This document shows, in pieces, positions 1,294 to 37,569 of a stretch of 59,014 bases of DNA. Made by a program: the position numbers and the translations under genes. Under the pieces are notes generated by a model. It saw nothing but the letters and a program-made list of their open reading frames with translations. It was not told where the DNA came from and searched no databases. Source of the stretch: Nevskiaceae bacterium. Its GTDB lineage: Bacteria; Pseudomonadota; Gammaproteobacteria; Steroidobacterales; Steroidobacteraceae. Position 1 is the stretch's first letter. Each line of letters opens with the position of its first letter. Where the stretch lies: assembly GCA_018883185.1 (NCBI GenBank), contig VEQP01000017.1, forward strand, positions 1 to 59,014, read 5' to 3'.

Positions 1294-2274
1294 TCAAACG
1301 TTGCGCCGCAGTGTAGCACCGCCCTTGCCACGCTTTTGAGCGGTGGTTGGAGGCAGCTCGGTCTCGCCTTCGGCACGGGTCGAGTAGAACTCTCGCGCCG
1401 TTTGCGTGATCGTGGAGATGGCCGGGTGTTTGATCTTGCGCTCAGTGGAGATCGCGAAAAACCGCGCGCGCAGCCCCTCGATGCGGCCGATGGGCAAGAC
1501 CCCATATTGCCGGGTGATCTCCGTTTCGACGGCGAGCGGTGCGGCGAAAGCCCCCACGCCGTGCTGCGCGAAGGTCTTGACGAGCGCGCTGTCATCGAGC
1601 TCGCCGACGATGCGCGGGGTAATGCCGAGCTTTTCGAACCACGCATCGAGTATGCGGCGGTTGGCAGTGCGATCTGTGGGTAGCAGTAGCGGTGCTTCGT
1701 GCAAGCTCTGCGGGAAGTTGCCGCGCAGCTTGCGGGCGAGCGCTGGCGCTGCAAAAAAACCGATGGCCGATTCACCCAACAGGTGACTGAAAGCCTTGAA
1801 GCCAGCATCCGCGGGCACTGCACTCGTGGAGAGCACGAGATCGAGACGATGCGCCGCCAGTTCGCCGAGCAGAGTCTCGAGCGGGCCCTCGTGACACAGC
1901 ACTTGGAAGGGGCCATCTCCTGTTAGCAGGGGTTCGAGAATGCGCCAGGTGACCAGCTTCGGCACGGCATCCGCCACGCCGATGGCGACCGATCGACGGC
2001 CTCTGGCCCCGGCGCCGCGCAGCACGCTGGCGAGTTCGAGGCCGCGAGGGAAGATTTCCTCGGCATAGGCATAGGCGATACGCCCGAGTTCGGTGGGCAC
2101 AAGGCGCCGCCCCTGCTTTTCGAACAGGGCGCCCTGCCACTGGGCCTCGAGCAGCTTGATCTGGCCACTCACGGTTTGCGGCGTCAGATGCAGCGCCGCT
2201 GCGGCCTGCGCGACCCCGCCCTCGCGGATTACGGTCCAGAAGTACAACAGATGGGTGTAGTTCGGATGGCGCAT
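1294..2274 (-). CDS. nhaR: LysR-family transcriptional regulator, NhaR-like
   Basis: This 326-residue LysR-type regulator has an N-terminal winged helix-turn-helix at about residues 5-63, including the helix HLTPQTVSGQIKLLE, followed by a periplasmic-binding-protein-like effector domain. The start (NYTHLLYFWTVIREGG) and the segment LVPTELGRIAYAYAEEIF match the NhaR subgroup, which in E. coli activates the Na+/H+ antiporter gene nhaA. No nhaA is visible here, so the target is probably different. The gene is transcribed away from the methyltransferase at 2366, with a 21-bp dyad in the shared intergenic region. It leads the unit with the two exported proteins downstream. Family call is firm; the regulon is unknown. 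Confidence 0.85.
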   Translation of the reverse strand: MRHPNYTHLLYFWTVIREGGVAQAAAALHLTPQTVSGQIKLLEAQWQGALFEKQGRRLVPTELGRIAYAYAEEIFPRGLELASVLRGAGARGRRSVAIGVADAVPKLVTWRILEPLLTGDGPFQVLCHEGPLETLLGELAAHRLDLVLSTSAVPADAGFKAFSHLLGESAIGFFAAPALARKLRGNFPQSLHEAPLLLPTDRTANRRILDAWFEKLGITPRIVGELDDSALVKTFAQHGVGAFAAPLAVETEITRQYGVLPIGRIEGLRARFFAISTERKIKHPAISTITQTAREFYSTRAEGETELPPTTAQKRGKGGATLRRNV

Positions 2275-2365: not shown

Positions 2366-3559
2366 ATGAGCATTCCCAAGCCTTGGCACGAAATCGGTCA
2401 CCACGAGATGCTGCCGCAGCTCACGCACGATGAGCTCGTGCGCTTCGATATGGTCGGCCAGCTCAACAGCTTCGCCGCGCAGCGCCTCGCGCCGCGGGTG
2501 CGTACGGCCTACGAGACCCGCGTCGTCAATGCTTGGCGGATGCGTCACGGGCACGCCCCGAAGGATCGTCACGAGGTGGCAGAGGCCTTGGCACCCGATG
2601 CGGACTACCGCTCGTGGAGCCTCGTCCGACGCAACACCATGGAGATGCGTCAGCACGCAGGTCGCAGGGCGATGCTGCGTCAGGCGCGGCAACTGCGCGA
2701 TCGTGCCGCCGCCCTCAACGCCGGGGCGAACACGCTGCAACTCGATGAGTCGTTGCCTGTTCCGCGGTATGTATCGGCTGTCGATACCCACCTTATGCCG
2801 GGCGGCTATGCCGCCGAGCACTTGCAGGGCGATGTGGTGAATCCGGCCAACTACGACGCGGGGTTGTTTGCCACGGTCGGTGGCAGCGCCGGGCGCTGGA
2901 ACGATGCGGCAGGGCGAGCACTCGTCAACTGGCTGCGCGAGCAGCAGCCGCAGTTTCGACCCAAGCGCATCGTGGATCTCGGCTGTGGGGTCGGCCACAA
3001 CACCCTGCCGTTGCGCGCGGCATTTCCGGGTGCGGAGATCATCGCCATCGATGTGGCTGCGCCGATGCTGCGATACGGTCACGCGCGAGCACGCGCGCTC
3101 GGAGTCGAGGATGTGCTGTTCCGTCAAGAGGACGCCACGCACACCTCGATCGCGAGCGGCTCCTGCGATCTTGTCTATACGACGATGGTGCTGCACGAGA
3201 CGTCGCATGAAGCGCTGCCGAAGATCATGCTCGAGGCGCATCGCCTGCTGCGCGCGGGCGGGTTGACGATCCACCTCGAGCAGCCGCCTTATCGTGGGCT
3301 AGAGCCTTTCGAGCAGTTCATGCGCGATTGGGACGGTCGCTACAACAACGAGCCGTTCTGGAGCGCTTTGCACGAGACCCGCGTGCCGGAGCTGCTCGAG
3401 CGGGCAGGGTTCGCGCCAGAACACATCTTCGAGTCGCGCTGCTCGGCGGCGAGCGCGGGCTCGGCTCAGGAAGATTTCGGACGGGCGCCCTCGTGGTACG
3501 CCGTGGGTGCATGGCAAACGGCAAACGGACTTGCCGCGATTGGAGAGCATGGATCATGA
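2366..3559 (+). CDS. Class I SAM-dependent methyltransferase with helical N-terminal domain
   Basis: The protein has 397 residues. The first ~200 are mostly helical and not a known catalytic domain. The Rossmann methyltransferase fold follows, with motif I VDLGCGVGHN (D204 near the SAM site), the acidic turn IIAIDVA, the motif DLVYTTMVLHE and a late strand AGGLTIHLEQP. The ATG at 2366 is chosen over the one at 2354 because of the weak GGGA just before it and homology-like spacing. It overlaps the next gene by 4 nt (ATGA). Its architecture, including an LxLxxxLPxPxY segment near residue 124, matches the methyltransferase at 34457-35593, so the two are paralogues. The substrate is unknown. Confidence 0.8.
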   Translation: MSIPKPWHEIGHHEMLPQLTHDELVRFDMVGQLNSFAAQRLAPRVRTAYETRVVNAWRMRHGHAPKDRHEVAEALAPDADYRSWSLVRRNTMEMRQHAGRRAMLRQARQLRDRAAALNAGANTLQLDESLPVPRYVSAVDTHLMPGGYAAEHLQGDVVNPANYDAGLFATVGGSAGRWNDAAGRALVNWLREQQPQFRPKRIVDLGCGVGHNTLPLRAAFPGAEIIAIDVAAPMLRYGHARARALGVEDVLFRQEDATHTSIASGSCDLVYTTMVLHETSHEALPKIMLEAHRLLRAGGLTIHLEQPPYRGLEPFEQFMRDWDGRYNNEPFWSALHETRVPELLERAGFAPEHIFESRCSAASAGSAQEDFGRAPSWYAVGAWQTANGLAAIGEHGS

Positions 3560-3867
3560 ATTCCCTCCCACTGGAAGCTGACCCCATCCAGCCAGCACCT
3601 GCGGTCCCGCGAGGGCGTCGTCCGGAATTCACCGACGACCCGATGCTCGACCGGTTGTACTCGGTCACGCTCGCGTTGGTATCGGAACTCGCCGTCACGC
3701 GCACGCGACTCGACACGGTCGAGCGCCTGCTCGCCGAGCGTGCCGTGCTGCCCGCGGCCGAGGTCGAGGGCTTCAAGCCTGATGAGGTGCAGGCTGCTTC
3801 GCGTGCCGAGTGGCAGCAGGCTTATCTCGAGCGCGTGCTGCGCGGTTTGCTTAACGAACCCGCTTGA
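3556..3867 (+). CDS. Short helical partner protein of the methyltransferase
   Basis: A 103-residue protein starting inside the stop of the methyltransferase (ATGA overlap), so the two are probably translationally coupled. After a Pro-rich N-terminus there is one long predicted amphipathic helix (ALVSELAVTRTRLDTVERLL) followed by the signature ERAVLPAAEVEGF and a second short helix. The protein encoded at 34101-34460 has the same pattern (AELYVVRERLATLEAEL, then RQVLPAEAVERH) and also follows a related methyltransferase. It has no catalytic motif. It could be a subunit, stabiliser or oligomerisation factor for the enzyme. The last 17 nt overlap the convergent gene at 3851-4375. Confidence 0.7.
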   Translation: MNSLPLEADPIQPAPAVPRGRRPEFTDDPMLDRLYSVTLALVSELAVTRTRLDTVERLLAERAVLPAAEVEGFKPDEVQAASRAEWQQAYLERVLRGLLNEPA

Positions 3868-4375
3868 CCTTCGCGGCTCGCCCCGAGGCGGCCACCAGGG
3901 TGAATGAGCCGAGTGCGCCCGGCTTGATCACGATGCTCTCACCGGTTTTCAGACGCAGCGTCACGCCGCTGGCCAGTTGTTGCCAATGCTGTCCGTTGTC
4001 GAGGCTGACGCGAAATGTGCCGTTGGCGAGGTAATCGACCGCCTCGACACTAGCGCTCAACTCCGCAAGATTCGAGGCGAGCGCCTTGGCCTGCTCGTCA
4101 CGCGCTTCTTGTGCGATCTTGCCGCGGTAGCCGAACAGCGCTTCATCGGTTTTCGGGACATCGACTTTCGATGCAGTGCCGAGCTGCTCAGTGCGAAACA
4201 GTCGGTCGTAGCACGCGAGGCGCTGCCCGATGTCCGACAGAGCGCCACAGCGCCGCGCATCGGTGACGAGCCTCGAATCTTGCGGTGCATTAGCCGGCGG
4301 TTCCGCATTAGTGGGCGGGTCCGACTGAGCGGCTAGCGGCTGAGCGGCGATTGCCAGTATCCAGATCAGCCGCAC
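3851..4375 (-). CDS. Small exported protein with Cys-rich RLxCYD motif
   Basis: A 174-residue protein, unrecognised as a whole. The GTG at 4375 is chosen because it comes 2 nt after the stop of the upstream hydroxylase gene and begins a good signal peptide (RLIWILAIAAQPLAAQ). The mature protein contains CGALSDIGQRLACYDRLF at about residues 48-65, a two-Cys helical motif found in many small proteobacterial exported proteins. It also has a C-terminal beta-rich part with a pattern like FRVSLDNGQHWQQL. It is probably co-transcribed with the beta-hydroxylase. It could be a periplasmic substrate or helper of that enzyme, but nothing in the sequence proves this. Confidence 0.6.
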   Translation of the reverse strand: MRLIWILAIAAQPLAAQSDPPTNAEPPANAPQDSRLVTDARRCGALSDIGQRLACYDRLFRTEQLGTASKVDVPKTDEALFGYRGKIAQEARDEQAKALASNLAELSASVEAVDYLANGTFRVSLDNGQHWQQLASGVTLRLKTGESIVIKPGALGSFTLVAASGRAAKVKRVR

Positions 4376-4377
4376 AA

Positions 4378-5364
4378 TCAGATCTCCCACGCTGGCGGTG
4401 CGCCATTGTACCGATCGATGCCGACGAACAACTGTGTTACCCAGTCGCGCTCCTGCGCAGTGAGTTCCGGTCGCCAGATTTCGAACAGAAGGATCACCCG
4501 CGTTTCCTTGGAGTCGTTCCAGGCTTCGTGCTCGATGGTGTCGTCGAACGCCCAGGTGACACCCTTGCGCCATTCGCGAGTTTCGTTGCCGACGCGGAAG
4601 CGGCAGCCTTCAGGCACGATCAGCGGCAAATGGCAGATCAGCCGAGTGTTGACGAGCCCGCAGTGCGGCGGGATGTGTGCGCCGGGGCGCAACAGCGAAA
4701 ACAGCACCGACGGAGAACGTTGCGGGAGCGAGCCGAGCGGCACTTTCTGCAGCGCCGCCATGGTGCGCGGACAGCGGCGTGCATTTTCGGTGATCACATT
4801 GCCCTCTTTCCAAAGATAGAAGGCACTCCAGTCCGGGTTATTCAGCATGCCGGCTTCGGCCTTGCGCGGGCGGTTCGGATCGCCTTGCACATAGGGCTTG
4901 AAGTCATCAGGTGTACGCAGCAGCTCGAGCAACTCATCGCGAATGGCATCCGTGTGAGACTCGAGTTCGGCGAACCAGGGGAAGGGCGCGCGATCGTAAA
5001 ACTGGATCTGCGGCAGCCCCGGGAAAAAGTAGTAGCGCGGGTTCTGAAAGAAGATCTGCTTGCGGCCGAGTACGATATCGAGCGATTCGGCGAAGCGCGG
5101 ACTCGAGGCCTCGGGGCGAAAGCCCTGTGCGGCGAGGTGGTCGGTGAGATGCTGCTGAAATTGATTTGCGTAAGTTGAGAGCAGCGAACGGATCCGCACC
5201 AGTTCGTTTTCAAGCGCAGGGCTTCGAGGCGTTGCCGCCGCCGCGCGAATGGCGGCTTGATAAAAAGCGGCTGCCGAGCGTTTGTCCCCGCCCGCCGCGT
5301 ATTCGTCACCGCGGTGGATGAGTGCGATCGGATTGGCGGTCGTGTTTGGCGCGGAAGCGCTCAT
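4378..5364 (-). CDS. Aspartyl/asparaginyl beta-hydroxylase domain protein
   Basis: A 328-residue protein. Residues ~15-45 look like a single TPR-like helical hairpin. The C-terminal half is the AspH-type Fe(II)/2-oxoglutarate oxygenase fold. The iron ligands are visible as H234 in IPPHCGLVNTRL and H279 in FDDTIEHEAWND, and R289 in ETRVIL is placed to bind 2-oxoglutarate. The spacing fits known AspH enzymes, which hydroxylate Asp or Asn side chains. The ATG at 5364 excludes an implausible upstream extension. It is divergent from a close paralogue at 5468, with 103 bp between the starts. The substrate is unknown: a protein, peptide or amino acid are all possible. Confidence 0.85.
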   Translation of the reverse strand: MSASAPNTTANPIALIHRGDEYAAGGDKRSAAAFYQAAIRAAAATPRSPALENELVRIRSLLSTYANQFQQHLTDHLAAQGFRPEASSPRFAESLDIVLGRKQIFFQNPRYYFFPGLPQIQFYDRAPFPWFAELESHTDAIRDELLELLRTPDDFKPYVQGDPNRPRKAEAGMLNNPDWSAFYLWKEGNVITENARRCPRTMAALQKVPLGSLPQRSPSVLFSLLRPGAHIPPHCGLVNTRLICHLPLIVPEGCRFRVGNETREWRKGVTWAFDDTIEHEAWNDSKETRVILLFEIWRPELTAQERDWVTQLFVGIDRYNGAPPAWEI

Positions 5365-5467
5365 GTTAGAGTTTGGCTCGTGGGTCAACCTGCCGCAGTA
5401 TCCATCGCGTTGCGCAGCGGGTAAAGGCGGTAGACAGGTCGTTTGGCGGCAGGGGGCGATCATCCCG
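5365..5467. promoter_or_regulatory. Divergent promoter region of two beta-hydroxylase genes
   Basis: This 103-bp gap is the only untranslated space between the two divergent hydroxylase genes, so it must hold both promoters unless transcription reads in from elsewhere. An AGGGGG run about 12 nt before the ATG at 5468 may act as its ribosome binding site. I cannot assign -35/-10 boxes with confidence. Confidence 0.4.
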
Positions 5468-6661
5468 ATGGAGCGCACAGCATCCGGGCGCACGAGCGTC
5501 GAATACGAACAACTCGCCACGCGCGCAATGATGGCGGGAGATTTTGCGACCGCACGCGGACTGCTCGATGCCTGGGTGCAGCAGGAGCCTACGCACCTCG
5601 GTGCGTGGTTGCGCCGCGCGGCCGTGTGTCGGCAACAGGGTGATACGGCTGCCGCCTTCGACTCGCTGAGCGGCGCGCTGAAGCTCGACCCGCGCTGTTT
5701 CCCGGCTTTGCTGATGGTGGCCACCTTGCTCGAGCGCGAGGGCGATGTACCCGCAGCGGCGCGCCAATACGAAATCGCGATCGCTCAAGCGCCTCCTGAT
5801 GAGCGACTCGATGCCGCCTCGCGCAGCGCGCTTGAGCACGGTCGGCACATCGTCGCGAAACATTCGGCAGCGCTGCGCGATTACATCCACGCGGATCTCG
5901 ATACCGTTCGGCAGGATTGCACGCCAAGCGAGCAACGGCGCCTCGAGACCTTCATCGATACGACGCTGCGCCTGCGGCAGCGTTACATGCAGCAGCCGAT
6001 GGAGTACTGCTACCCGGGCATGCCGTCGATCGAGTTTTACGATCGATCGATGTTCCCGTGGCTCGTGGAGCTCGAGGCCGCGACGCCAGACATTCGTCGC
6101 GAATTGCTCGGGCTACTCGACGAGGGCGCGCCCGGCTTCTCGCCGTACGTGAATTACGCCGAACACATGCCGCTCGATCAGTGGCGCGAGCTCAATCGCT
6201 CGCCGCGTTGGACAGCTTGGCATTTCTACGAGCGCGCGACGCCCATTGCCGATCGCTGGGTGCGGGCGCCACTGACCGCGGCGGCGTTTTCGAGGCTTCC
6301 GCAGGCGCGGGTGCCGCTGCGTTCCCCCACCGCGCTGTTCTCGGCGCTACGGCCGAAGACCCGCATCCCGCCGCACACGGGCATCGCTAACTTCCGCCTG
6401 CTCGTGCACCTTGCACTCGTGATTCCGCAAGGTTGCGGCTTTCGTGTGGGTGGCGAGACGCGGCCGTGGCGAGAGGGCGAAGCCTGGATCTTCGATGACA
6501 CGATCGAGCACGAGGCCTGGAATGACAGCGATGAGCTGCGCGTGATCCTCATCTGCGACATCTGGAGTCCGCTGCTCTCGCTCGCCGAGCGTGAGGCCAT
6601 TGCTGCGGTGATCCGTGCTCGCGATGCCTACACGGGCATCATTCCGCGCAGCGACGGTTGA
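5468..6661 (+). CDS. TPR-containing aspartyl/asparaginyl beta-hydroxylase
   Basis: A 397-residue protein. Residues ~10-120 form TPR-like helix pairs (ATRAMMAGDFATARGLLDAW, then CRQQGDTAAAFDSLSGALKL and LEREGDVPAAARQYEIAI). The C-terminal oxygenase domain carries H303 in IPPHTGIANFRL, H348 in FDDTIEHEAWND and R358 for 2-oxoglutarate. It is clearly a paralogue of the divergent gene at 4378-5364, but with a longer TPR part, which suggests a different protein partner. The ATG at 5468 starts the TPR region directly. Transcription faces the TBDR gene and ends next to that gene's terminator. Confidence 0.87.
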   Translation: MERTASGRTSVEYEQLATRAMMAGDFATARGLLDAWVQQEPTHLGAWLRRAAVCRQQGDTAAAFDSLSGALKLDPRCFPALLMVATLLEREGDVPAAARQYEIAIAQAPPDERLDAASRSALEHGRHIVAKHSAALRDYIHADLDTVRQDCTPSEQRRLETFIDTTLRLRQRYMQQPMEYCYPGMPSIEFYDRSMFPWLVELEAATPDIRRELLGLLDEGAPGFSPYVNYAEHMPLDQWRELNRSPRWTAWHFYERATPIADRWVRAPLTAAAFSRLPQARVPLRSPTALFSALRPKTRIPPHTGIANFRLLVHLALVIPQGCGFRVGGETRPWREGEAWIFDDTIEHEAWNDSDELRVILICDIWSPLLSLAEREAIAAVIRARDAYTGIIPRSDG

Positions 6662-6735: not shown

Positions 6736-9681
6736 TTAGAACGACACCTTGACGCGGGCGAACAGATACCGACCCAGCGCGTCATAGACTTGCGGGTAGG
6801 TGTTGCCGTTGCCGGTGGTGCCGACGCTCGCGTTGATCGAGGGATCGTTGTCGAGGACGTTGTTCACGCCGATCGTGGCAGCAATCTTCTCGTTGAACAC
6901 GTACGTGCCGGCGAGGTCGAAGTAGCTCTCAGCAGCGAAAGAGCGGTCGATACGGGTCGCCGCCTGCTGGTAGCCCTCGACGCTGCCGTAGTAGCGCCAG
7001 GTCAAAGCGAGGTCGAGGTTCCACGGGGTCTCGTAACCCACGCGGAACTGGTGACGCCACTTCGGGTTCGGCGTACCGCACGAGCCGGCGAAGAAGCCCA
7101 CGCAGTCATAGGCCGAAAGGCCCGGACCCGGCTCCGTCGACAACTCGTTCAGGTAGGTGCCCTGGAGGTTGAAGTTCAGGCTGCCCGCGCCCACATCGAG
7201 GCCGGCATAGCTGAAGTTCACGTCCACACCTGAGGTGGCGAGCGAACCGATGTTGATGTTCAGGTCCTGCACGAGACCCGAACCCAGCCACAACTGACCG
7301 AGCGCGTTGCGCTTGATGCGACCGCAAGCGGCCGCGTCATTGTTGTTGTAGCAGGCCTTCAGGGTGTTGATCGGACCGAACGAACCCACGGTCTTGTCGA
7401 CCGTGATGTCGAAGTAGTCGATCGAAGCCACGAAGCCCGGCAGAGCCGACGGGGTGATGATGATGCCCGCTGTGAGGGTGTCCGACTCCTCGGGGTTGAG
7501 GTTCGGGTTACCGCCACCCAGCAGCTGGTACTGACCCGCCGGGCTGTCGAGCGCCGCCTTGCCTACGTTGGCTGCCGGCACGCCGGTGGCCAAGCACTGA
7601 GCCGCAGTCGCCTTCACGCCGCTGACGGTGGTGCCGAGTGCCTCACCGCAGGGGTCGCCGTCCAGATCGAACAGGCCGTTGCCCTGCGCGGTGAACAACT
7701 CGATGATGTTCGCCGCACGGACTGCGCGCTGGAAGCTGCCGCGGACGCGGAAGTCTTCCACCGGCGACCACTCGAGACCCAGCTTGTAGGTATCGGTGTT
7801 GACCTTGCCGTAGTCCGAGTAACGGTAGGCGACGTCGAGGCTGAGGCTCTCGGCGAAGGTCTTGCCCTGCACGAGCGGCAGACGGCCTTCGAGGAAGAGA
7901 TCCTTGACCTGGGTCGCGCCCTTGAGACCGATGGTCGGACCACCGGTACCCGAGAGGGCCGCACTCGTCAGCAGCGCATCGGTGGTGTTCTCCAGCGAGT
8001 CGCGGCGGTATTCGGCACCGAGTGCGATCTGCGCGCCTTCTTCAGCGGCCGGCATCTTCACGCCGTAGCTGTTGAGATCGCCCGTGAAGGTCAGGGTGTA
8101 GACCTCCTGGTCGATCGTGCCGGCCTGCAGACCCGGGGCCTGCAGGTAATTGAGGGCGTCTTGCGTGACGCCACCGGTCTTGAACGCGTTGTAGGGCTTG
8201 CAACCCGGATCCGAGCCGTTTACCACCGAGCGGCAGGTCGGCACGCCGTTGACCAACACCACATCGAGAGCGTTCTTGATGCGATCGATCACGAAGTAGT
8301 TCAGCGTCTGCTGGTCGGCCTTCAACGTCGAACGCTGGGCCGCAAAGTCGTAGCCCCACGCATCGTTGATGTCGCCCCGCACGCCGACGACGGCGCGGTA
8401 GGACTGGTTGGTGAACGACTGCTGACGACCGCCACCTTCGGTGTTACGACGACCGATGTACATCGGCACGCTTTCACCGGCAGCAATCTTCGCGGCCGTG
8501 CAACCGATCGCGGCGCGGTTGGCCGCCGGGATGAACGGGTTGTCGCAGTTGATGGTCGAGGTGTCACCGATGAAGATGCCGCCTGGCGCGATCTGCGCCA
8601 CCGAGCGGTAGTCGGTGAACATCAGCTGGGTGTAGACGTCGGCCTTGTCGTTGAGCTCATAGTGGCCGCTGGCGCCCAGGGTGTAGCGGTCTGACGGACG
8701 CAGGTAGTGGTTGGTGGGACCGAAGTTGTACTGGTCGGTCGCACTGCTGAAATTGCGCCAGGTCGAGCCGTCGGAGCCCACCGTGAAGTTGTAGGTGGCG
8801 AAGTCCGTGAAGCGGCCCGGCGATGCCGTGGAGGAACCACCGCAGGTGAAGGACGGCGGCGTGCCGGCCTGACCACCCAGCGAGCAGGCCGAGAAGTCAC
8901 GGTCACGCTGCAGGATTTCGTCGTTGGTCTGGGCGTTGAAGTAGGCGACGAAGTTGCCGCGGCCATCGCCCGTATTCATGCCGACGATGATGCCGCCCTC
9001 GCGGCCGAAGCCGTCGGTGACGTTACCCGGGGGCAGCTTGAACTGCGCCGGGTTGGTGGCTGCACGACCGGCGATCACCTGTCGCAGGCCCGTGGCACCC
9101 GGGCCACCGAAGCCGTTGTTGTGCTGATAGAAGCTGTACTGACCCGAGATCTCGACACCTTCGAAATCCCGCTTGGTGATGAAGTTCACCACGCCCGCGA
9201 TGGCGTCCGAACCGTACACGGCCGACGAACCGCCGGTGAGTACTTCGACGCGCTCGACGAGCTGGGTCGGGATCTGGTTGAGGTCAGCGGCCGAGCTGCC
9301 GACGCCGCCGTAAGGCATGCGACGACCGTCGACCAGCACCAAGGTGCGCGAGGAACCGAGACCGCGGAGGTTGACCGTGGCGGTGCCTGAGGCGCCGTTG
9401 GCGACCGTGGCGTTCTGCGCGGCGAAAGCCTGCGGCAGCTGGTTGATGAGATCTTCGATACGCGTCACGCCCTGCGTGGTGATATCCGCCGCAGTGACCT
9501 GCGTGATCGGGCTCGAAGACTCAAGGTTCGCCTGCTTCAGGCGCGAACCGGTCACGACGACCGTTTCGAGCGATTCAGCGGTGGCCGCTTCCTGAGCCAG
9601 TGCCGGCGTCATGCTCGCCGGAACCAGCCCCAGAATCAGCGCACGCCGAACGGCGAGTGCGACATTGGAGTTGGGTTGCAT
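6736..9681 (-). CDS. TonB-dependent outer membrane receptor
   Basis: The 981-residue protein imports a ligand across the outer membrane using TonB energy. It has a signal peptide (ends near residue 29, ALAQE), a short N-terminal segment LETVVVTGSRL, and a plug domain at about residues 45-165 with the hallmarks VNLRGLGSSRTLVLVDGRR and VLTGGSSAVYGSDAIAGVVN. A long 22-strand barrel follows and ends in VKVSF, the C-terminal Phe needed for membrane insertion. Length and lack of an N-terminal signalling extension fit the receptor class common in Steroidobacter and Caulobacter relatives. The ligand cannot be told from sequence. It is flanked by a beta-hydroxylase and a TPR-sulfotransferase and has its own terminator. 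Confidence 0.95.
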   Translation of the reverse strand: MQPNSNVALAVRRALILGLVPASMTPALAQEAATAESLETVVVTGSRLKQANLESSSPITQVTAADITTQGVTRIEDLINQLPQAFAAQNATVANGASGTATVNLRGLGSSRTLVLVDGRRMPYGGVGSSAADLNQIPTQLVERVEVLTGGSSAVYGSDAIAGVVNFITKRDFEGVEISGQYSFYQHNNGFGGPGATGLRQVIAGRAATNPAQFKLPPGNVTDGFGREGGIIVGMNTGDGRGNFVAYFNAQTNDEILQRDRDFSACSLGGQAGTPPSFTCGGSSTASPGRFTDFATYNFTVGSDGSTWRNFSSATDQYNFGPTNHYLRPSDRYTLGASGHYELNDKADVYTQLMFTDYRSVAQIAPGGIFIGDTSTINCDNPFIPAANRAAIGCTAAKIAAGESVPMYIGRRNTEGGGRQQSFTNQSYRAVVGVRGDINDAWGYDFAAQRSTLKADQQTLNYFVIDRIKNALDVVLVNGVPTCRSVVNGSDPGCKPYNAFKTGGVTQDALNYLQAPGLQAGTIDQEVYTLTFTGDLNSYGVKMPAAEEGAQIALGAEYRRDSLENTTDALLTSAALSGTGGPTIGLKGATQVKDLFLEGRLPLVQGKTFAESLSLDVAYRYSDYGKVNTDTYKLGLEWSPVEDFRVRGSFQRAVRAANIIELFTAQGNGLFDLDGDPCGEALGTTVSGVKATAAQCLATGVPAANVGKAALDSPAGQYQLLGGGNPNLNPEESDTLTAGIIITPSALPGFVASIDYFDITVDKTVGSFGPINTLKACYNNNDAAACGRIKRNALGQLWLGSGLVQDLNINIGSLATSGVDVNFSYAGLDVGAGSLNFNLQGTYLNELSTEPGPGLSAYDCVGFFAGSCGTPNPKWRHQFRVGYETPWNLDLALTWRYYGSVEGYQQAATRIDRSFAAESYFDLAGTYVFNEKIAATIGVNNVLDNDPSINASVGTTGNGNTYPQVYDALGRYLFARVKVSF

Positions 9682-9743: not shown

Positions 9744-9915
9744 CAAAGCCGGCGCTGACAGGTGCGTGAATACTACCGAATTTGTCGCAGGATTGAAATT
9801 GTTGTTGTGAAGAAGCAACAGTGCGTTCATCGCCTGTCGTTTTGTACCGACGGCGCTGCTCGCGCCCTGCGGTAGTCCCCGCAACCTCGGCCCGCCCGTT
9901 ATGATGCGCGCCACC

Positions 9916-11898
9916 ATGACGCTCACCCTCGATCAGGCCCTGGACGCCGGGCTGCGCGCCCAGCATGCCCGGGACCTTGTTGCGGCCGAGCGGGCCTATC
10001 GTCAGGCGCTCGACATCGCCCCGAATGATCCGGAAACCAACAGTCTGCTGGGTCTCGCCCTGGCGCAGGCGGGTCGCCTTGAGGAGGGCCTTGGCGCGTT
10101 GCACCGAGCGGTTGAACTCGACCCGGACGAGAGCGCGCTACAGATGAACCTCGCCGAGGGGCTCGCCCTCGCACAGCGCTGGCGCGATGCGCAGCAGGTG
10201 CTGCTGGCCTTGATCGAGCGCTGGCCGGTGCAGGGCCCGGCGTGGACCCGACTGGGGGACGCCTGCCTGGCACTCGAGGAGCGTGAGGCCGCCTTGCTCG
10301 CATGGCGTCGGGCGCATGAACTCGATGTCGATGCCGTGGAACCTGCCCGCAAGCTCGCCACGCTCGCCCGCGAGACGGGTCAAGGCGACGAGGCCATCGC
10401 GGTGCTCGAGCAGACGCTCAGCCTGCGGCCGACGGAGCCCGCTCTGCTTGCGGTGCTGTGTGACTTGCTCGTCGATCAACGTGCGTGGGGACGGTTGCAG
10501 GCCACGGCTCAGGCCTGGGCGGGTGGCGAGCGTAACGAGCCCTTGCCGTGGTACTTCCTCGCCCAGTCGCTGTTCGAGCAGGGGCGGCACCGCGAAGCCG
10601 TGGAAGCGTTCGCGAACTATCTGTCGCTCGGCGCACACGGCGTGGCGGATTTGGCCGCGTTCGCCGGTCTTTGCTTGCATGCACACGACTACACCGGTGC
10701 GGAGGCGGCGCTCGCAGCGGCACGCGAGATCGACGCCCAGCATCCCGAAGTGCTCGCCAAGAGCGCGCTGCTGCACATGTATTTCGGTCGTTTCGAGGCA
10801 GCGAAGGCGGCCTGTCTCGCCTGCCTCGAGCGCGAACCGTTGCACGTGCCGGTGCATACGCTGCTGAGCCGCCTCTCGCAGGGCGCGCTGTCCGCCGAGT
10901 CGCTGCAGCGCATGGAGCAGGTGACAACCACTGAGCTCGCGCCCTTCGATCTGCGTATTCCGGCAGCCTTTGCGGTCGCTCACGCGTTCGATGCTCTGGA
11001 TGATATTGACAGTGCGTTTGCGGCCTACGCTCGGGCGCATGCGCTGTCGGCGGAGCGCGATCGGCTCGAGGGTCGGGTGTATGACCGATCACTTGTCGAG
11101 TCGCGCACACGTCGATTGATGGAACTCGACTGGGGCGCCCCGCTCGCGGGCGAGGCGGGTGAGGCGCGGCCGATTTTCATCGTCGGTATGCCGCGTTCGG
11201 GCACGACGCTCATCGAGGCGATGCTCGGCGCGCACCCGCAGGTGCAGGCCAACGGCGAGTTGCTTGGCATGCAGGCACTGCTCGCGCAATTCGAGACCGA
11301 GGATCGCGCCGGACGGCGCATCGATGCGGCTGGCTTGCGAGCGATGGCGGCTCACTACCGCGCCGAGTTGCCGCGAGCGGCGGGCAAGTCGCACGTCACC
11401 GACAAGCATCCGCTGAATTTTTTGGCAGTGGGTCTCATCCTCACCTTGTTTCCGAACGCGGTCGTCCTCCACGCGCGCCGTGATCCGCTCGAGACCGGCT
11501 GGTCGATTTTCCGGCAGGAATTCAGCAAGCGTTGGTCGTTCACGCATCAGCTCGAAGACATCGGGCATTTCTATGGCGAATACGTCCGCTTGATGAGTCA
11601 CTGGGAGCGACGCTTCCCAGGGCGCATTCTTACCGTGCAGTACGAGGATTTCGCCGGCGGCTTCGCCGACGCGGCGCCGTCTATCGTGCAGGCCTGTGGC
11701 CTGCCCTGGGATCCCCGATGTCTCGATTTCGCCGGTGCTCCGCAAGCGATCGCCACATTCAGTTCGGTGGATGTCCGTCGTCCGGTGAGCGTGCGTCGCG
11801 GTCGCGCCGCGCTGTATGCCGCGCATCTTGAGCCGCTGCGCAGCGCGTTGCAGGCCGCGGGCGTGGATCTTCAGACCGGTGGGTCGGCGAGCCGCTGA
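9916..11898 (+). CDS. TPR repeat-containing sulfotransferase
   Basis: A 660-residue protein. Residues 1-~380 are a run of TPR units (for example AERAYRQALDIAPNDPETNS, then LALAQAGRLEEGLGALHRAV). The C-terminal third is a PAPS-dependent sulfotransferase: the 5'-phosphosulfate loop FIVGMPRSGTTLIEA starts near residue 420 and the 3'-phosphate segment is VLHARRDPLETGWSIF. It would transfer sulfate from PAPS to a hydroxyl group, possibly on a protein docked to the TPRs. No signal peptide is seen. ATGs at 9901 and 9904 are alternative starts; none has a good ribosome site. Its last 28 nt overlap the convergent second sulfotransferase. Confidence 0.88.
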   Translation: MTLTLDQALDAGLRAQHARDLVAAERAYRQALDIAPNDPETNSLLGLALAQAGRLEEGLGALHRAVELDPDESALQMNLAEGLALAQRWRDAQQVLLALIERWPVQGPAWTRLGDACLALEEREAALLAWRRAHELDVDAVEPARKLATLARETGQGDEAIAVLEQTLSLRPTEPALLAVLCDLLVDQRAWGRLQATAQAWAGGERNEPLPWYFLAQSLFEQGRHREAVEAFANYLSLGAHGVADLAAFAGLCLHAHDYTGAEAALAAAREIDAQHPEVLAKSALLHMYFGRFEAAKAACLACLEREPLHVPVHTLLSRLSQGALSAESLQRMEQVTTTELAPFDLRIPAAFAVAHAFDALDDIDSAFAAYARAHALSAERDRLEGRVYDRSLVESRTRRLMELDWGAPLAGEAGEARPIFIVGMPRSGTTLIEAMLGAHPQVQANGELLGMQALLAQFETEDRAGRRIDAAGLRAMAAHYRAELPRAAGKSHVTDKHPLNFLAVGLILTLFPNAVVLHARRDPLETGWSIFRQEFSKRWSFTHQLEDIGHFYGEYVRLMSHWERRFPGRILTVQYEDFAGGFADAAPSIVQACGLPWDPRCLDFAGAPQAIATFSSVDVRRPVSVRRGRAALYAAHLEPLRSALQAAGVDLQTGGSASR

Positions 11899-13415
11899 CG
11901 CCAGGGTTCGAGTTCGCTCGCATAGTGCTGCCAGCGCCCTGCGGAGCGATGATGCAGCGGTTCGCGTACCTGCCAAACGCTGGCGGTTTTCACGAGCGTC
12001 TTTTGCCGGTGGAATTCGAGGCAGGCAGGCTCCCAAGGCAGACCGAGCGCATCAAGCAGTCGGCGCACGCTGTTTTCCGGCTCCTTTACCAATGATTCGT
12101 AATCCACTTCGATGAGCTCGTGCGCGTACAGCGAGCGCCAATGCTGCATCAATCTTTGGTACTCACGCAGATGATGGGCAATGTCGTCGAGGTCGGTCGC
12201 GTAGGCCATTGAGTGATCGAGGTGCAGAAACCAGATCGACAATAGATTGTCGAGCGCGTTGCGGCGCGTGTGCACGATGCGCGCTCGCGGAAACAGCGCC
12301 TTGATCAGCCCGATGTGCTGGAAGTTGTCCGGCCGCTTGTCGGTGACGTAGTCCGCACCCGAATGAATTCTTTGTATGCCGTGCAGATAGGCTTCTGCGG
12401 CCGCTTGGGCGCGTGTGGCGTCGAGGCCTTGGCAGGCGGCGGGGTAAGGCTGGAAGTGCTGCTGCACGATCGTGGGCAGTAGTGGCAGCTCGCCGGCGCG
12501 CCGCACCTGCGGATGGGCAGCAAGAATCTGCTCAAGCAGCGTCGAGCCCGAGCGGAACATGCCGCAGATAAACACCAACCGCGGCGCGTCCCCGGTCTTT
12601 GTCGGGGCTGCAGGTTTCATTGGAGCCTGTGCAGCGCTCGTTTGCGGGAATGCCGCGATGAGTGCGTCGATGTAGCGCGAATAGGCGTCTCGGTCGTAAC
12701 GCTCGCCCGCCGCCAATGCGCTCATCCGGCTCGCTGTATTGGCCGTGCGATACGCCCGCCAGGCTTCGGAATACTCCCCTGCGGCATCGAGCGCGCGACC
12801 GAGCGCGAAGCCGAGTTCGGCACGCGGGCCCCACTGCGTGCCAGTCGCTGCGAGCGCTCTGCGCAGGCGCGGGATCAGCGGCTCCTCGGCATGCGTGATC
12901 ACGGACGCGTTGGCCAGGCGCGCGAGTGCGTCGGGGTGATCGGCTTGCAGTGCGAGCACGCGTGCATAGGCCTCACGCGCCGCCTCGCGCTCGCCCCTAT
13001 CTTCGTGCAGGTTTGCGAGGTTCATCCAGGCGGGCAAATACTTCGGGTTGAGTTGCAGCGCGCGCCGCAACTCGATTTCCGCAAGCTCGGCACGTTGGAG
13101 GTCGTCGGCGTAAATCACGCCGCGATTCAAGTGCGCTTCCTCCGGGCCATCAAGGCCGAGTTCGAGTGCGCGGGCGTAACTCGTCAGCGCGGCCTCAGGC
13201 TCGCCGCAGCGCCGTTGCATGCGCGCGAGGTTGTACCAAGTGTCGGCGAGCGCAGGCCATTGCGAGAGCACCTGCTGCAGCGTGGCGGCGCTGGCCGCCC
13301 ACGCCCCGTTGCGTTCCTGCTCGGCCGCCTGCGTCAGCAGGCGCTCGGCCGCGGCCTGGCCTTCGCTGGCTGGGCCGTCGTTCAGCGGCCTGTTATTCAC
13401 CGGCCCGTCAGTCAC
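11871..13415 (-). CDS. TPR repeat-containing sulfotransferase (second type)
   Basis: A 514-residue protein with TPR units over about residues 20-165 (WYNLARMQRRCGEPEAALTS, then MNLANLHEDRGEREAAREAY) and a sulfotransferase domain. The PAPS loop is FICGMFRSGSTLLEQ at 283-297, and the 3'-phosphate segment is IVHTRRNALDNLLSIWF. It differs enough from the gene it faces (9916-11898) that recent duplication is unlikely. The GTG start at 13415 overlaps the stop of the DUF192 gene by 4 nt (GTGA), so the two form an operon. No signal peptide is present, so it should act in the cytoplasm. The acceptor is unknown. Confidence 0.87.
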   Translation of the reverse strand: MTDGPVNNRPLNDGPASEGQAAAERLLTQAAEQERNGAWAASAATLQQVLSQWPALADTWYNLARMQRRCGEPEAALTSYARALELGLDGPEEAHLNRGVIYADDLQRAELAEIELRRALQLNPKYLPAWMNLANLHEDRGEREAAREAYARVLALQADHPDALARLANASVITHAEEPLIPRLRRALAATGTQWGPRAELGFALGRALDAAGEYSEAWRAYRTANTASRMSALAAGERYDRDAYSRYIDALIAAFPQTSAAQAPMKPAAPTKTGDAPRLVFICGMFRSGSTLLEQILAAHPQVRRAGELPLLPTIVQQHFQPYPAACQGLDATRAQAAAEAYLHGIQRIHSGADYVTDKRPDNFQHIGLIKALFPRARIVHTRRNALDNLLSIWFLHLDHSMAYATDLDDIAHHLREYQRLMQHWRSLYAHELIEVDYESLVKEPENSVRRLLDALGLPWEPACLEFHRQKTLVKTASVWQVREPLHHRSAGRWQHYASELEPWRQRLADPPV

Positions 13416-33198: not shown

Positions 33199-34104
33199 CT
33201 ACTTTTTGCCGGGTGTGGTGGGCTGAACCTTTTTCTTGAAGTAGGTCCAGCTCGTCTCATTTTCGCGACTGTCATCGCCCGGGGGCGGGTTGCGGTACTC
33301 GGGGTATTCAGTCTCGATCGCCTTGCGCATCACGGTCGGCAACTGCTCGTAAGAGTCGAGTTTGCGGCCGGCGGCATGGATGTAGATGATGCCGGCGCGG
33401 CCGCTCATTTCCATCCAGGGCAACCACTCGGCGAGGCGCACCCAACCCACCTCGATGGCCGGGTTGGCGTTCTTCGGGTCGACCAGGTCGCTCACCTTGC
33501 CGAAGAAATTGAACATTTCGGTGGCGTGGTAGTAGCCGCCTACGTTTTTTTGATATTCGCCGCCGAGCGGGTTGATGTAGAACAACGGCACGGTGATGGT
33601 GTTCCACCAGGTGTCGCCTGAGATGGTGCCCGGCCACTTCGCCGGCGTGCCATCGGCGGCCTTGGCGAACACGGGGCGCTGGTTGACCGGGTCGTTGGCC
33701 GTCTGCAGAACTTTGACGGTCTGGCCGGTCCACGGGTTCTTCCACTCGCGCAGCAGCTCGCCCGTCGTCGGGTCGACGTACAGCAGCAGTTCGCGTGAGA
33801 CGAGGCGCCAGCCAGCACCGCGCGCCGGATCATTGACGGTCACGCACTGGCGGACGTTGTAGCCCTCCACATCGAACAGCTTGCGATCACGCTCGCCCGG
33901 AACGCGGCTGAACGCTTCGCCATGGAAGTAATAGATCGTCGGCACGTTGTCGTTGGCCGAGCACTGGATCTTGCGGGCCGCGAGGTTGGCGCCCTCCGGC
34001 GTGCCGAGGTCGATGGGCTTGGCCTTGCTCGCGGCCAGCGTGGCGGCGCTGCCGAGTAGCATCACGGCGGCGGCGAGCGAAAGAACGTTCCAGGATCGGC
34101 TCAT
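33199..34104 (-). CDS. DUF1838 family exported protein
   Basis: A 301-residue protein with a signal peptide (VLSLAAAVMLLGSAATLAAS) and the DUF1838 domain. Recognisable parts are FHGEAFSRVPGERDRKLFDV, then LLYVDPTTGELLREWKNPWT and WLPWMEMSGRAGIIYIHAAG. The family is widespread in environmental proteobacteria without assigned function. It is the last gene of the rhodanese-speA operon and starts within the stop of the short helical protein gene (ATGA). Being exported, it probably acts apart from the cytoplasmic enzymes before it. Confidence 0.85.
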   Translation of the reverse strand: MSRSWNVLSLAAAVMLLGSAATLAASKAKPIDLGTPEGANLAARKIQCSANDNVPTIYYFHGEAFSRVPGERDRKLFDVEGYNVRQCVTVNDPARGAGWRLVSRELLLYVDPTTGELLREWKNPWTGQTVKVLQTANDPVNQRPVFAKAADGTPAKWPGTISGDTWWNTITVPLFYINPLGGEYQKNVGGYYHATEMFNFFGKVSDLVDPKNANPAIEVGWVRLAEWLPWMEMSGRAGIIYIHAAGRKLDSYEQLPTVMRKAIETEYPEYRNPPPGDDSRENETSWTYFKKKVQPTTPGKK

Positions 34105-34460
34105 GGCGGTCTGTCTCCTGCGGATCGATTGAGATATTTGACGACTTCGGGATGGATGCGCGATACCGGCACCCGGTTGCGGGTGAGTTCAGCGAGCACT
34201 CGGGTGGTGAAGGCCGCGAGGTCGGCTGCCCGCGCCTCCGCCTCGGCCGGCGTATCACGGTGACGCTCGACCGCCTCGGCAGGCAACACCTGCCGGGCCG
34301 TGAGTTCGGCTTCGAGCGTGGCGAGGCGCTCGCGCACCACGTAAAGCTCTGCGGTCAAAGCCATGATGGCACCGACCGCGTTGTCCATCGGCAGCGCGGC
34401 GAGGAAGTCCGGCTCGAGGTCCGTAATCGGGCCCTGCAATGCGGCGTTGCGCTCGGTCAT
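34101..34460 (-). CDS. Short helical partner protein of the methyltransferase (second copy)
   Basis: A 119-residue protein related to the one at 3556-3867. The shared core is a predicted amphipathic helix (ALTAELYVVRERLATLEAEL) followed by the signature ARQVLPAEAVERH. The C-terminus is longer here and ends in a basic/Pro-containing tail. It starts inside the stop of the methyltransferase gene and ends inside the start of the DUF1838 gene, both 4-nt overlaps. There is no catalytic motif or signal peptide. A role as a regulatory or structural subunit of the methyltransferase is inferred from the repeated pairing. Confidence 0.7.
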   Translation of the reverse strand: MTERNAALQGPITDLEPDFLAALPMDNAVGAIMALTAELYVVRERLATLEAELTARQVLPAEAVERHRDTPAEAEARAADLAAFTTRVLAELTRNRVPVSRIHPEVVKYLNRSAGDRPP

Positions 34461-35593
34461 TTCTCGAACACGTAGAGGTTCCAGTAGTTCGCGTTGATCG
34501 GTGCTCGTCCGGGACGTTTCACTGATCGGTTCAGCCGCTCGAAAGGCGTGATGCTGACTTTGGAAAACCCTGCCGCGCGCGCCCATTCGGCGATCGGTGA
34601 GTCGTACCACGGCGTGGAGTAGGTTTCGTTGTTTGTCCAGGCGTGGGTTCGCTGCAGCACGTTCTGGAAGTCATCGCCCGGGCGAAGGTGGAACTCATGC
34701 CCGACGAACAGACCACCGGGTTTGAGCACCCGCGCCGCCTCGGCAAGCAGAGCCGGAGTGTGCGCGGGCGGCAATTCGTGCAGCATGAAGTTGAAGAAGA
34801 TCAGATCGAAACTCTCGTTCGGGTAGTCGAGGTGCTCCAGATCCTGCTGCGAGAGCTGGAACCTGAAGCCCTGCTCGCGAGCGCGTCGGTGGGCGACCTT
34901 CAGGCACGGCGCCGATAGATCCACGCCATGGCATTCCGACTCAGGATGCAACTGCTGCCAGGTGATGAGCGCTGCGCCATGCCCCGTGCCCCAATCGAGT
35001 ACCCGCGACCAATGCCGCTGCGGCAGTGCCTCGAAGAGGATGCGGTAGATACCGTTCGGATCTGCGTGGGCCGGAACGGTCGTGCGTCGGCCGATTTCAT
35101 AGGCGAGACCGTCGAGTGCGTCGTGGGCGACGCCGCCGGTGTGCTGATGAAAGGGGACGAAGCGGAAGTACTCGGGCAACGGCAGCGCGGGGTTCAGTCG
35201 CAGTTCGTCCGGCGCGGCCGTGGCTGCGGTGGACTCGAGCTCGGCGACCAGACGTTCGCGCTGGGCTTGCAGGGTGGCGAAGATGCCGAACGAGGGCCAG
35301 TGATACTTGAAACGCTGCAGATTGCGGTAGGCCCAGCAGTAAAACTGGAACTCGGTCGTGCCATCGAGCAGCGCCTCGACGCCGCGCCAATCTCCGGCGG
35401 CGGGACGAGCTTCCGCTGGCGTGCGCTCTAGCGCTGCCTCGTAAGCATCGTGCATCTGTGCGACTAAAGGACCTTCCATGTAATTGCGCGCCGCGCGCAG
35501 GAAGGTGTGGTAGCTGCGAAAGTCGCGGCTCTCCTCGACCTGCAGCGGCGGCGGTCGGGTGTCGTCACGCAATGGGTCGAGAACGGCGTTCAT
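34457..35593 (-). CDS. Class I SAM-dependent methyltransferase with helical N-terminal domain (second copy)
   Basis: A 378-residue paralogue of the protein at 2366-3559. The first ~195 residues are mostly helical and contain the shared segment LRLNPALPLPEYF near 131, followed by HTGGVAHD. The Rossmann domain begins with VLDWGTGHGA (D200), then CHGVDLSAPCLKVA, DLIFFNFMLHELP and the closing strands KPGGLFVGHEFHL. It begins inside the speA stop codon (ATGA), so it is co-translated with arginine decarboxylase. The substrate is unknown. The speA context makes an amine or amine-derived product one option, but this is only a guess. Confidence 0.82.
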   Translation of the reverse strand: MNAVLDPLRDDTRPPPLQVEESRDFRSYHTFLRAARNYMEGPLVAQMHDAYEAALERTPAEARPAAGDWRGVEALLDGTTEFQFYCWAYRNLQRFKYHWPSFGIFATLQAQRERLVAELESTAATAAPDELRLNPALPLPEYFRFVPFHQHTGGVAHDALDGLAYEIGRRTTVPAHADPNGIYRILFEALPQRHWSRVLDWGTGHGAALITWQQLHPESECHGVDLSAPCLKVAHRRAREQGFRFQLSQQDLEHLDYPNESFDLIFFNFMLHELPPAHTPALLAEAARVLKPGGLFVGHEFHLRPGDDFQNVLQRTHAWTNNETYSTPWYDSPIAEWARAAGFSKVSITPFERLNRSVKRPGRAPINANYWNLYVFEK

Positions 35594-37569
35594 TCCAGGT
35601 AAGCATACCCGTTGAGCTCGCCTTCATAGAAGCGCTTGAGCGCTTGGCTCTCGACGACCGTCATGCGGCCCTCGCGGATCGCGCGTTCGCAGTCCCGCGC
35701 CAGCGCCGGATAAAGCTCCGCGACGTCGTACTCCATGTATTCGAGCACCTTGTTGGCGGTATCACCCATCACGACTTCGTCGATCCACCACTTGCCGTCA
35801 TCCTCGAGGCGAATGTGCACGACGTGGGTATCGCCAAAGAGATTGTGCAGATCGCCCAAGGTTTCCTGATACGCACCGACCAGGAAGGCCGCGAGGTAGT
35901 ACTCGTCTCCTTCGGCGATATCGTGCAGTTCGAGGGTGCGTTTGACCTCACGATGACTGACGAAGTGGTCGATCTTGCCGTCCGAGTCGCAGGTGATGTC
36001 GGCGAGTACGGCGCGTCGGGTGGGGCATTCGTCGAGTCGGTGTATCGGCATGATCGGGAATAGCTGGTCGATCGCCCAACTGTCTGGCAGCGACTGGAAC
36101 ACCGACATGTTGCAGAAGTAAATGTCCGAAAGGATCGACTCGATGCCCTCGAGCTCCTCGGGCACTTCGTCGAGCTTGCGACAGTAGTCGCGAATCTTCG
36201 CGCAGGTCGCCCAGTACAGGCGCTCGGCGAGGCCGCGGAACTCAAGCGATAGCAGCCCGAGGTTGAACATCTGCAGGCACTGCTCGCGCGCGGTGAGCGC
36301 ATCGTGCCAGCACTCGACGAGCCGTCGTTCGCTGACCTCGCGGTATGCGCCGAGCAGATCCTGCACGGGCTGGGGCAGGGTGCGCCCCGCGTATTCTTCA
36401 TCCTCGCGACCACTGACGCGGAATTTGTCGAGCGCCGAGGAGCCGAGGGTATTGAAGATCAGCACGCTGTGATGCGCCGCGATCGCTCGGCCCGACTCGC
36501 TGACGATCAGAGGGTGCTCGATGCCGCGCGCGTTGCACACGCTCGCCACGCGATACACGACATCGTTGGCGTATTCCTCGATGCTGTAATTCATTGAGGA
36601 GGAGTAGTTGGTGCCCGAGCCATCGTAGTCGACGCCGAGGCCACCACCGACGTCGATGTATTCGAGGCCGGCCCCGAGCAGTTTCAACTCCGCGTAGACG
36701 TGGGCGAGCTCGTTGATTGCATCCTTGACGCGCCGAATGTCCTGCAACTGGCTGCCAGGGTGGCAGTGTACGAGCTTGAGGCAGTCGAGCATGTTCTCGC
36801 GCCGCAGCACCTCGACCGCTTCGAGGATCTCCGTGATGAAGAGACCAAACTTGGATTTCTCGCCCGCCGAATCGCGCCAACGACCCGAACCCTCGCTCGC
36901 GAGTTTGACGCGGATGCCGATGCGCGGCCGCACGTCGAGGGCGCGCGCGTGCTTGATGATGAGCCCGAGTTCGGCAAAGTTTTCCACCACCGGGACGATA
37001 GTGCGGCCAAGCTTGGTGGCGAGCATCGCCGTTTCGATGTAGCTGTCGTCCTTGAAGCCATTGCAGACGATCAGGCGGTCGGGTGAGTTCTCCGTCATCG
37101 CCATCACGGCGAGCAGTTCCGGCTTGCTGCCCGCTTCGAGACCGAAACCGAAGTCGGCGCCGTAGCGGTAAACCTCCTGCACCACGAGGCGTTGCTGGTT
37201 CACCTTGATCGGAAACACCGCCGAGTAGCGGTTGCGGTAGTCGTTCTCGCTGATCGCACGCGCGAAGGCGTCGTTCAGCTGCTTCAAGCGATGCGCGAGA
37301 ATGCCGGAAAAGCGCACCACGACAGGCGTGGTCAGTTCGCGCTGTTTCAGGCCTTGCACCACCTCATACAGGTCGATCTCCCGCCCCGCCACTTGCTCGG
37401 GGCGCACCACGACATGGCCCGCCTCGTTGATGCCGAAGTAGCCTTGGCCCCAAGCGGGAAGGTGATAGAGGTCGAGCGACTCGCTCACGCTCCACGGCGG
37501 CGCGCGACGTGTTCCGTTTGCAGCCACTCCGTTTGCAGCGCTGGCGGGCGTTGAACTGTCCGTGCTCAC
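35590..37569 (-). CDS. speA: Biosynthetic arginine decarboxylase
   Basis: A 659-residue PLP enzyme that turns arginine into agmatine, the first step of one route to putrescine. The length matches E. coli SpeA (658). The PLP lysine is K122 in FPIKVNQ, followed by GLEAGSKPEL. The phosphate-binding glycine stretch is YIDVGGGLGVDYDG. The late CDSDG segment (in LADITCDSDG) holds the conserved active-site Cys. The GTG start at 37569 overlaps the rhodanese stop by 4 nt, and the end overlaps the methyltransferase start. No agmatinase or agmatine deiminase gene is visible in the window. Confidence 0.96.
   Translation of the reverse strand: MSTDSSTPASAANGVAANGTRRAPPWSVSESLDLYHLPAWGQGYFGINEAGHVVVRPEQVAGREIDLYEVVQGLKQRELTTPVVVRFSGILAHRLKQLNDAFARAISENDYRNRYSAVFPIKVNQQRLVVQEVYRYGADFGFGLEAGSKPELLAVMAMTENSPDRLIVCNGFKDDSYIETAMLATKLGRTIVPVVENFAELGLIIKHARALDVRPRIGIRVKLASEGSGRWRDSAGEKSKFGLFITEILEAVEVLRRENMLDCLKLVHCHPGSQLQDIRRVKDAINELAHVYAELKLLGAGLEYIDVGGGLGVDYDGSGTNYSSSMNYSIEEYANDVVYRVASVCNARGIEHPLIVSESGRAIAAHHSVLIFNTLGSSALDKFRVSGREDEEYAGRTLPQPVQDLLGAYREVSERRLVECWHDALTAREQCLQMFNLGLLSLEFRGLAERLYWATCAKIRDYCRKLDEVPEELEGIESILSDIYFCNMSVFQSLPDSWAIDQLFPIMPIHRLDECPTRRAVLADITCDSDGKIDHFVSHREVKRTLELHDIAEGDEYYLAAFLVGAYQETLGDLHNLFGDTHVVHIRLEDDGKWWIDEVVMGDTANKVLEYMEYDVAELYPALARDCERAIREGRMTVVESQALKRFYEGELNGYAYLE

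Follow-up and report, generated by a model that had tools for sequence, protein, structure and literature searches.

Class I SAM-dependent methyltransferases are common, and several of those described approach parts of the system analyzed here. Trm112, a zinc-binding hub that serves RNA as well as protein methyltransferases, and the activators of its type work on a principle, the dependence of a class I methyltransferase on a small partner, which the gene pairs reported below bring to mind. The small proteins of these pairs differ from Trm112 in that cysteine makes up 0.1% of their residues, with a highest Cys column frequency of 0.00 in 68 partners that leaves no place for zinc-binding cysteines, and in that they are nearly as many as the enzymes in each genome. 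RebM and AtmM, which are not known to have a dedicated small subunit, carry an LHH motif that aligns to an LHE in the methyltransferase family studied here, and RebM (3bus) is the best PDB match to the profile of that family (E 1.7e-22), over the SAM domain only and with the N-terminal domain outside the match. BioC, UbiE and CpaM have the SAM domain in common with the two enzymes of our locus, MT1 and MT2, but these score 55 and 47 bits against the NCBIfam model for BioC, 32-51 bits against those for UbiE (at best 51 bits, where the cut-off is 216) and 55 bits each against that for CpaM, with all the cut-offs (185, 158-216 and 180 bits, respectively) far above. Finally, the metal-dependent carboxyl O-methyltransferases CysG and BelI bind a divalent metal through a His pair and an Asp (PMC11408123). 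They resemble the present family in their class I SAM domain, in which H277-E278 of MT1 aligns with the metal-site HH of CysG, and in Foldseek target TM-scores of 0.63-0.65 were obtained for CysG entries against our structural models. However, CysG and BelI are proteins of about 229 residues with neither this N-terminal domain nor a partner, and, although H277 fits the first His, the second position of the pair is a Glu in all 118 distinct full-length members of our family. Because the His-His-Asp motif is not found, we do not assign the family to the CysG/BelI group. As no third metal ligand has been placed, metal use remains an idea, a metal site of other composition being conceivable.

The locus lies in a window of 59,014 nucleotides, the whole stretch of DNA that was analyzed, from a bacterium whose genome of 2.8 Mb is about 90% complete. 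An earlier note on this DNA had described two gene pairs, at 2366-3867 and 34101-35593, each consisting of a methyltransferase gene overlapped through ATGA by the gene for a short helical protein, and both pairs were found exactly so (Table 1). The motifs it had located were also confirmed: D204 in MT1 and D200 in MT2, an LxLxxxLPxPxY segment from residues 124 and 131, and a GGxA element at 146 and 153. The start of MT1 is here taken as the ATG at 2366, an alternative in-frame ATG at 2354 being possible. The two enzymes are 27% identical over 282 aa (E 2e-23), and the corresponding figure for the short proteins, P1 and P2, is 38% over 73 aa (E 1e-7); these resemblances go beyond chance and make the short proteins members of one family, as had been supposed. 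In contrast, the VLPAxxVE string is common to P1 and P2 but is not a signature of the family when 68 partners are considered. The pairs had also been called paralogous, with the short protein kept beside its enzyme through duplication, and this holds for the family as a whole but not as a local duplication, since the closest paralogue of MT1 (53% identity) is encoded on a different contig (L025), the best paralogue of MT2 reaches only about 29%, and both enzymes belong to a genome family of 18 members. Profile searches of the host genome returned these 18 methyltransferases with the N-terminal domain, a count that omits one match (L038) covering the SAM domain alone, together with 16 partner genes, so that the pairs in the window are two of many.

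Table 1. Features of the window discussed in the text.
Feature	Positions	Strand	Remarks
LysR-type regulator, divergent from MT1	1294..2274	-	Pfam HTH_1, LysR_substrate
MT1, class I SAM-dependent methyltransferase with helical N-terminal domain of ~180 aa	2366..3559	+	397 aa; Pfam Methyltransf_25
P1, helical partner	3556..3867	+	103 aa; family profile match; ATGA overlap with MT1
DUF1838 protein, 3' of P2	33199..34104	-	Pfam PF08894, E 2e-70
P2, helical partner	34101..34460	-	119 aa; profile match; ATGA overlap with MT2
MT2, divergent member of the MT1 methyltransferase family	34457..35593	-	378 aa; Pfam Methyltransf_25
Arginine decarboxylase (speA-like)	35590..37569	-	Pfam Orn_Arg_deC_N, Arg_decarb_HB, Arg_decarbox_C

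The SAM domains of MT1 and MT2 exceed several Pfam methyltransferase cut-offs, with 69.2 and 82.3 bits against Methyltransf_25 (PF13649; cut-off 27). Among 118 members, the glycines of the SAM motif are kept at 97% (G206) and 98% (G210) and D229, at the SAM ribose position of the class I fold, at 100%, and the family can therefore be counted among the class I SAM methyltransferases. Nonetheless, the methyltransferase fold is used for other reactions by SpnF and RdmB, both of which are included in the 50 matches that Foldseek listed for one of our models, and it might be argued that the Rossmann protein is not a practising methyltransferase either. Two members of the family from the host genome (L030, 6544-7746; L036, 6086-7291) start with MIGRR.LFG, followed by a hydrophobic stretch and an Ala-rich region, which is presumably a Tat-like export signal; a periplasmic SAM enzyme would be odd, SAM being cytoplasmic. 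Given the conservation of the SAM motif and the fact that the listed fold matches are mostly ordinary methyltransferases, we regard a different reaction as distinctly unlikely. Besides D229, the residues unchanged in 118/118 distinct full-length members are, in MT1 numbering, P133, H142, G146, H277, E278 and G299, and E329 is kept in 99% of them. The nearest solved relatives include AtmM, deposited as a D-glucose O-methyltransferase, and the carboxyl O-methyltransferases CysG and BelI, and by analogy the reaction is probably an O-methylation; they also include the C-methyltransferases CouO and NovO as well as N-methyltransferases, and the acceptor atom is thus not fixed. The N-terminal domains of 20 members, scanned alone against Pfam, gave a single weak match (E 0.059), and their profile matched no PDB sequence up to E 1. 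A role in anti-phage defence was considered and rejected, because in PADLOC the window enzymes match mad2 and MTase_II over the common SAM domain only; P1 and P2 had no PADLOC match up to E 0.001.

The partners form a family of their own. Across 68 sequences, conservation is highest at the columns corresponding to L41 (Leu in 91%), R51 (Arg in 94%) and E56 (Glu in 94%) of P1. No Pfam or NCBIfam family matches P1 up to E 1, and the 68 partners show only scattered weak matches, with no more than five members per Pfam family (best E 0.001, for WH4_Lhr, matched by 3/68) and no more than seven per NCBIfam family (best E 4e-4, for PspB, matched by 7/68). Neither the N-terminal domain nor the partner falls convincingly into any Pfam family. 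The suggestion in the earlier note that the partner might be a substrate carrier, here taken to mean an acyl-carrier-like protein or peptide that is modified or holds the substrate covalently, would be in keeping with its adjacency and small size, which fit carrier or precursor genes. It might also draw on a weak resemblance (overall E 0.0012 and 0.0019) of the partner profile to the N-terminal helix of the nitrile hydratase alpha chain, a family that some leaders of peptide natural products resemble, but with a single-stretch i-E of 11 the likeness is too weak, and kinship with nitrile hydratase was rejected. Moreover, among the 68 partners no column exceeds 24% Ser, 28% Lys or 0% Cys, so that even the attachment Ser of carrier proteins has no counterpart, no Pfam or NCBIfam family of carriers or leader peptides stands out beyond chance among the listed matches, and the conserved part is a predicted helical hairpin instead of a leader with a variable core. 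A carrier or substrate role is accordingly very improbable. Natural fusions of enzyme and partner were also sought, but none of the 77 enzyme and 77 partner genes called matches both profiles; an apparent fusion (L052) was discarded as well, because its long frame is read out of frame and ends in the partner.

In 60 genomes of the bacterial family, our own included, an enzyme is found no more than 300 bp away, and always on the same strand, for 42/55 partners; at 2 kb the number rises to 45 and at 20 kb to 52, with enzyme ends approximated from matches to the N-terminal domain; one of the 13 beyond 300 bp (G020 C17, 48.7 kb) does adjoin an enzyme (L092), which scored below the cut-off used. 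The three partners with no enzyme match within 20 kb comprise one at the end of its contig (G000 C13), one whose contig has no enzyme match at all (G058) and one at a distance of 33 kb (G012). When 37 partner loci from the other family genomes were inspected, a same-strand enzyme was present within 2 kb in 31 and within 300 bp in 29, while in the other six (L067, L068, L069, L071, L073 and L082) there was none within the stretch or it was 4 kb off on the other strand. Outside the family, the strong partner matches of the phylum and class samples are all enzyme-linked (12/12), at no more than 300 bp in 11 cases and at 1.1 kb in the other, and four weak matches (E 2e-4 to 9e-4) have no enzyme inside their 3.1-3.2-kb loci. 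The expectation that homologues of the short proteins would adjoin methyltransferases sharing the N-terminal domain of MT1 and MT2 is thereby upheld. The partner is downstream of the enzyme in 65/71 adjacent pairs, a count in which the downstream partner was taken where an enzyme has two, and directly so in 16/16 loci of MT2 relatives; three enzymes (L026, L062 and L063) have a partner on either side. Pairs are also found on the four plasmids examined, from Sphingomonas, Sphingobium, Novosphingobium and Antarctobacter.

Seen from the enzyme, the association is looser: in the same 60 genomes, a partner is located within 300 bp for 39/59 enzymes and within 20 kb for 50/59, some of the latter through a partner that already adjoins another enzyme. 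Nine have no partner match within 20 kb, which become seven once the enzyme at a contig edge in G025 and the one cut by a contig end in G058 are set aside. Hence, even allowing for contig ends, some enzymes seem to act alone or in trans, and the term obligate subunit proposed in the earlier note is supported by adjacency as to subunit but is too strong as to obligate. In two cases of non-adjacent genes (G000 C59, 45/55 kb; G020 C2, 108/120 kb) enzyme and partner are on opposite strands across a similar gap of 9-11 kb, which suggests split clusters that still pair.

The distribution of the two genes follows the same pattern. The partner is present in 17 and the enzyme in 18 of the 60 family genomes, the sets being identical except for G025 (Fisher p 5e-14), where the enzyme gene extends to the very end of its contig and a downstream partner would therefore fall off it. 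When 397 phylum genomes were searched, the partner profile returned seven, four of them with strong matches, and the enzyme profile exactly those four, with equal numbers of enzymes and partners outside our own genome. At most 12, 17 or 8 first-look candidates per genome were scored in the phylum and class searches, the phylum runs recovering 12/16 of our own partners and 8/18 of our own enzymes, and absences in these searches are consequently uncertain. Within the genus, all 24 genomes carry both genes, amounting to 254 enzymes and 221 partners with correlated copy numbers (r 0.97) and reaching up to 31 enzymes, in a genome of 4.3 Mb, and 25 partners. The pair is many-copied within one bacterial group and rare elsewhere. 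Enzyme distances correlate with partner distances, with an r of 0.91 across the 71 adjacent pairs, of 0.69 in a thinned set of 34 pairs (not reached in any of 2000 shuffles) and of 0.47 in the 11 pairs of our own genome (reached in 4/2000), and the two genes have for the most part moved and diverged as units.

Structural models were obtained with AlphaFold for adjacent pairs treated as one chain, reading the intergenic stop codon as glycine and with four paired alignment rows; an alignment in which MAFFT had placed the 52 separate partner rows on the enzyme part was left out. A distant MT1-type pair with its genes in frame and a single stop between them (L140) gave a mean pLDDT of 86 and a pTM of 0.87, with partner helices at 454-487 and 502-531 (block pLDDT 79-87), while an MT2-type pair (L054) gave a mean pLDDT of 83 and a pTM of 0.83, with low values (48-76) in the blocks of the partner region. 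Compared with the pTM of about 0.7 that we estimate from chain lengths for an unplaced partner, both models suggest that the predicted hairpin is placed on the enzyme. Among the 50 matches listed by Foldseek for each model, query TM-scores range from 0.23 to 0.37, and none is a whole-chain match. The partner could instead be a specificity or chaperone factor that the enzyme needs in order to fold without its being part of the active enzyme, and this would account for the co-occurrence, for the unpaired enzymes and for the partners found on both sides of an enzyme. We consider it unlikely in view of the pairwise correlation of distances and of the predicted hairpin placement, of fair confidence in one pair, although both are compatible with a chaperone.

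The pairing of the two genes is real and strong, and the reading of the partner as a subunit is the best supported one. In our estimation it is probable that each pair encodes a two-subunit SAM-dependent methyltransferase acting on small molecules, with the partner as its dedicated second subunit. The large subunit would combine the class I (Rossmann) methyltransferase fold with a helical N-terminal domain of its own, and the partner of about 100 residues would pack on it as a helical hairpin that may complete, stabilize or gate the active site. A putative catalytic set would comprise His142, ahead of the Rossmann fold, His277-Glu278, after strand 4, and Glu329, and the fact that this set is common to the family makes it probable that its members carry out the same chemistry on different acceptors. 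The many copies could then be plug-in enzymes of different uptake and catabolic gene clusters. What would be new here is a methyltransferase family set apart by a helical domain of its own together with a small subunit dedicated to it. The statement of the earlier note that no system of this form was known agrees with a search of openly licensed PMC papers, with few word choices, in which no description of such an enzyme-partner pair was found. If the pairs are indeed two-subunit enzymes, genes annotated as a class I SAM-dependent methyltransferase and a hypothetical protein, as on the plasmid pJE1, become testable as one enzyme. A broader and rather doubtful proposition is that of an unnamed two-subunit family with a conserved, perhaps metal-binding His/Glu site, serving as a reusable module through which one genus of small genomes (at most 31 enzyme and 25 partner genes) has made methylation standard for many dissolved compounds.

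Among 66 operon neighbours of the units, hand-thinned from 96 by dropping same-cluster repeats and some others, and drawn from several genomes with some orthologous loci, there are 10 MFS transporters, five ABC ATPases, three FAD_binding_2 proteins and two FMN oxidoreductases. In 66 control genes, taken from 98 listed and from our own genome only, MFS is absent among the 25 of 114 families listed by member number and hence has at most one member, all gene calls on both sides coming from a simple in-house caller. Alpha/beta hydrolases adjoin some units, and Abhydrolase_1 is found in 5/66 neighbours and 5/66 controls, so that a methyl-ester cycle of the BioC/BioH kind is unsupported. A gene of a cluster that we read as TonB receptors stands at most three genes from a unit in 21 loci. 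On the Sphingomonas plasmid pJE1 the pair is surrounded by FAD oxidoreductases, dehydrogenases, hydantoinase genes and a TonB receptor; strain TomTYG65 is reportedly named in a paper on tomatine catabolism (PMC10653915). On the Antarctobacter plasmid the pair comes after two genes of the PLP-dependent decarboxylase fold. This context points to units that serve the uptake and metabolism of small molecules and not one pathway, and operons with transporters and FAD/FMN oxidoreductases suggest that methylation may be a routine step in the use of dissolved organic compounds.

The surroundings of the MT2 pair are themselves conserved. Sixteen relatives of MT2, at 70-94% identity, were found in named records, all of them MAG contigs (L042-L057), three of which are named Steroidobacteraceae and several of which would come from lakes if their isolate names are read so. 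A DUF1838 gene is present in 16/16 of these loci, 353-644 bases past the enzyme in 15 and 3.5 kb past it in one, such that enzyme, partner and DUF1838 occur together in all 16 and compactly in 15. In the window, the longest open reading frame of the DUF1838 gene overlaps P2 by four bases, a later start being possible. The speA-like gene likewise overlaps the start of MT2 by four bases, with a later start possible at 37488, and speA is upstream of the MT2 relative in 12/16 loci, within 80 bases in 10 of these. For the MT1 pair, relatives of the divergent LysR regulator are encoded near units in L070, L081 and L083, and part of the MT1-type units may thus respond to an inducer of their own.

Several minor observations concern these regions. 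One of the MAGs with an MT2 relative (L049, CAMCBU010000037.1; 79% identity, with partner and DUF1838) is titled Klebsiella pneumoniae, a title that looks wrong, as the record resembles those of Steroidobacteraceae. Two additional genomes, one from a different family, also encode a relative of the DUF1838 protein close to a unit (L080, 3983-4918; L135, 10556-11317), and two proteins of L031 (perhaps 3956-5763) share its BLAST cluster, without a direct match to the DUF1838 protein of the window. Downstream of the MT1 pair, the window carries two divergent aspartyl/asparaginyl beta-hydroxylase genes according to Pfam, at 4378-5364 (-) and 5318-6661 (+), the second with TPR repeats, whose starts overlap as called and which adjoin a putative TonB receptor gene at 6736-9681. 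Beside this putative TonB receptor there are also two TPR-sulfotransferase fusions, at 9901-11898 (+) and 11871-13400 (-), located on opposite strands with overlapping 3' ends.
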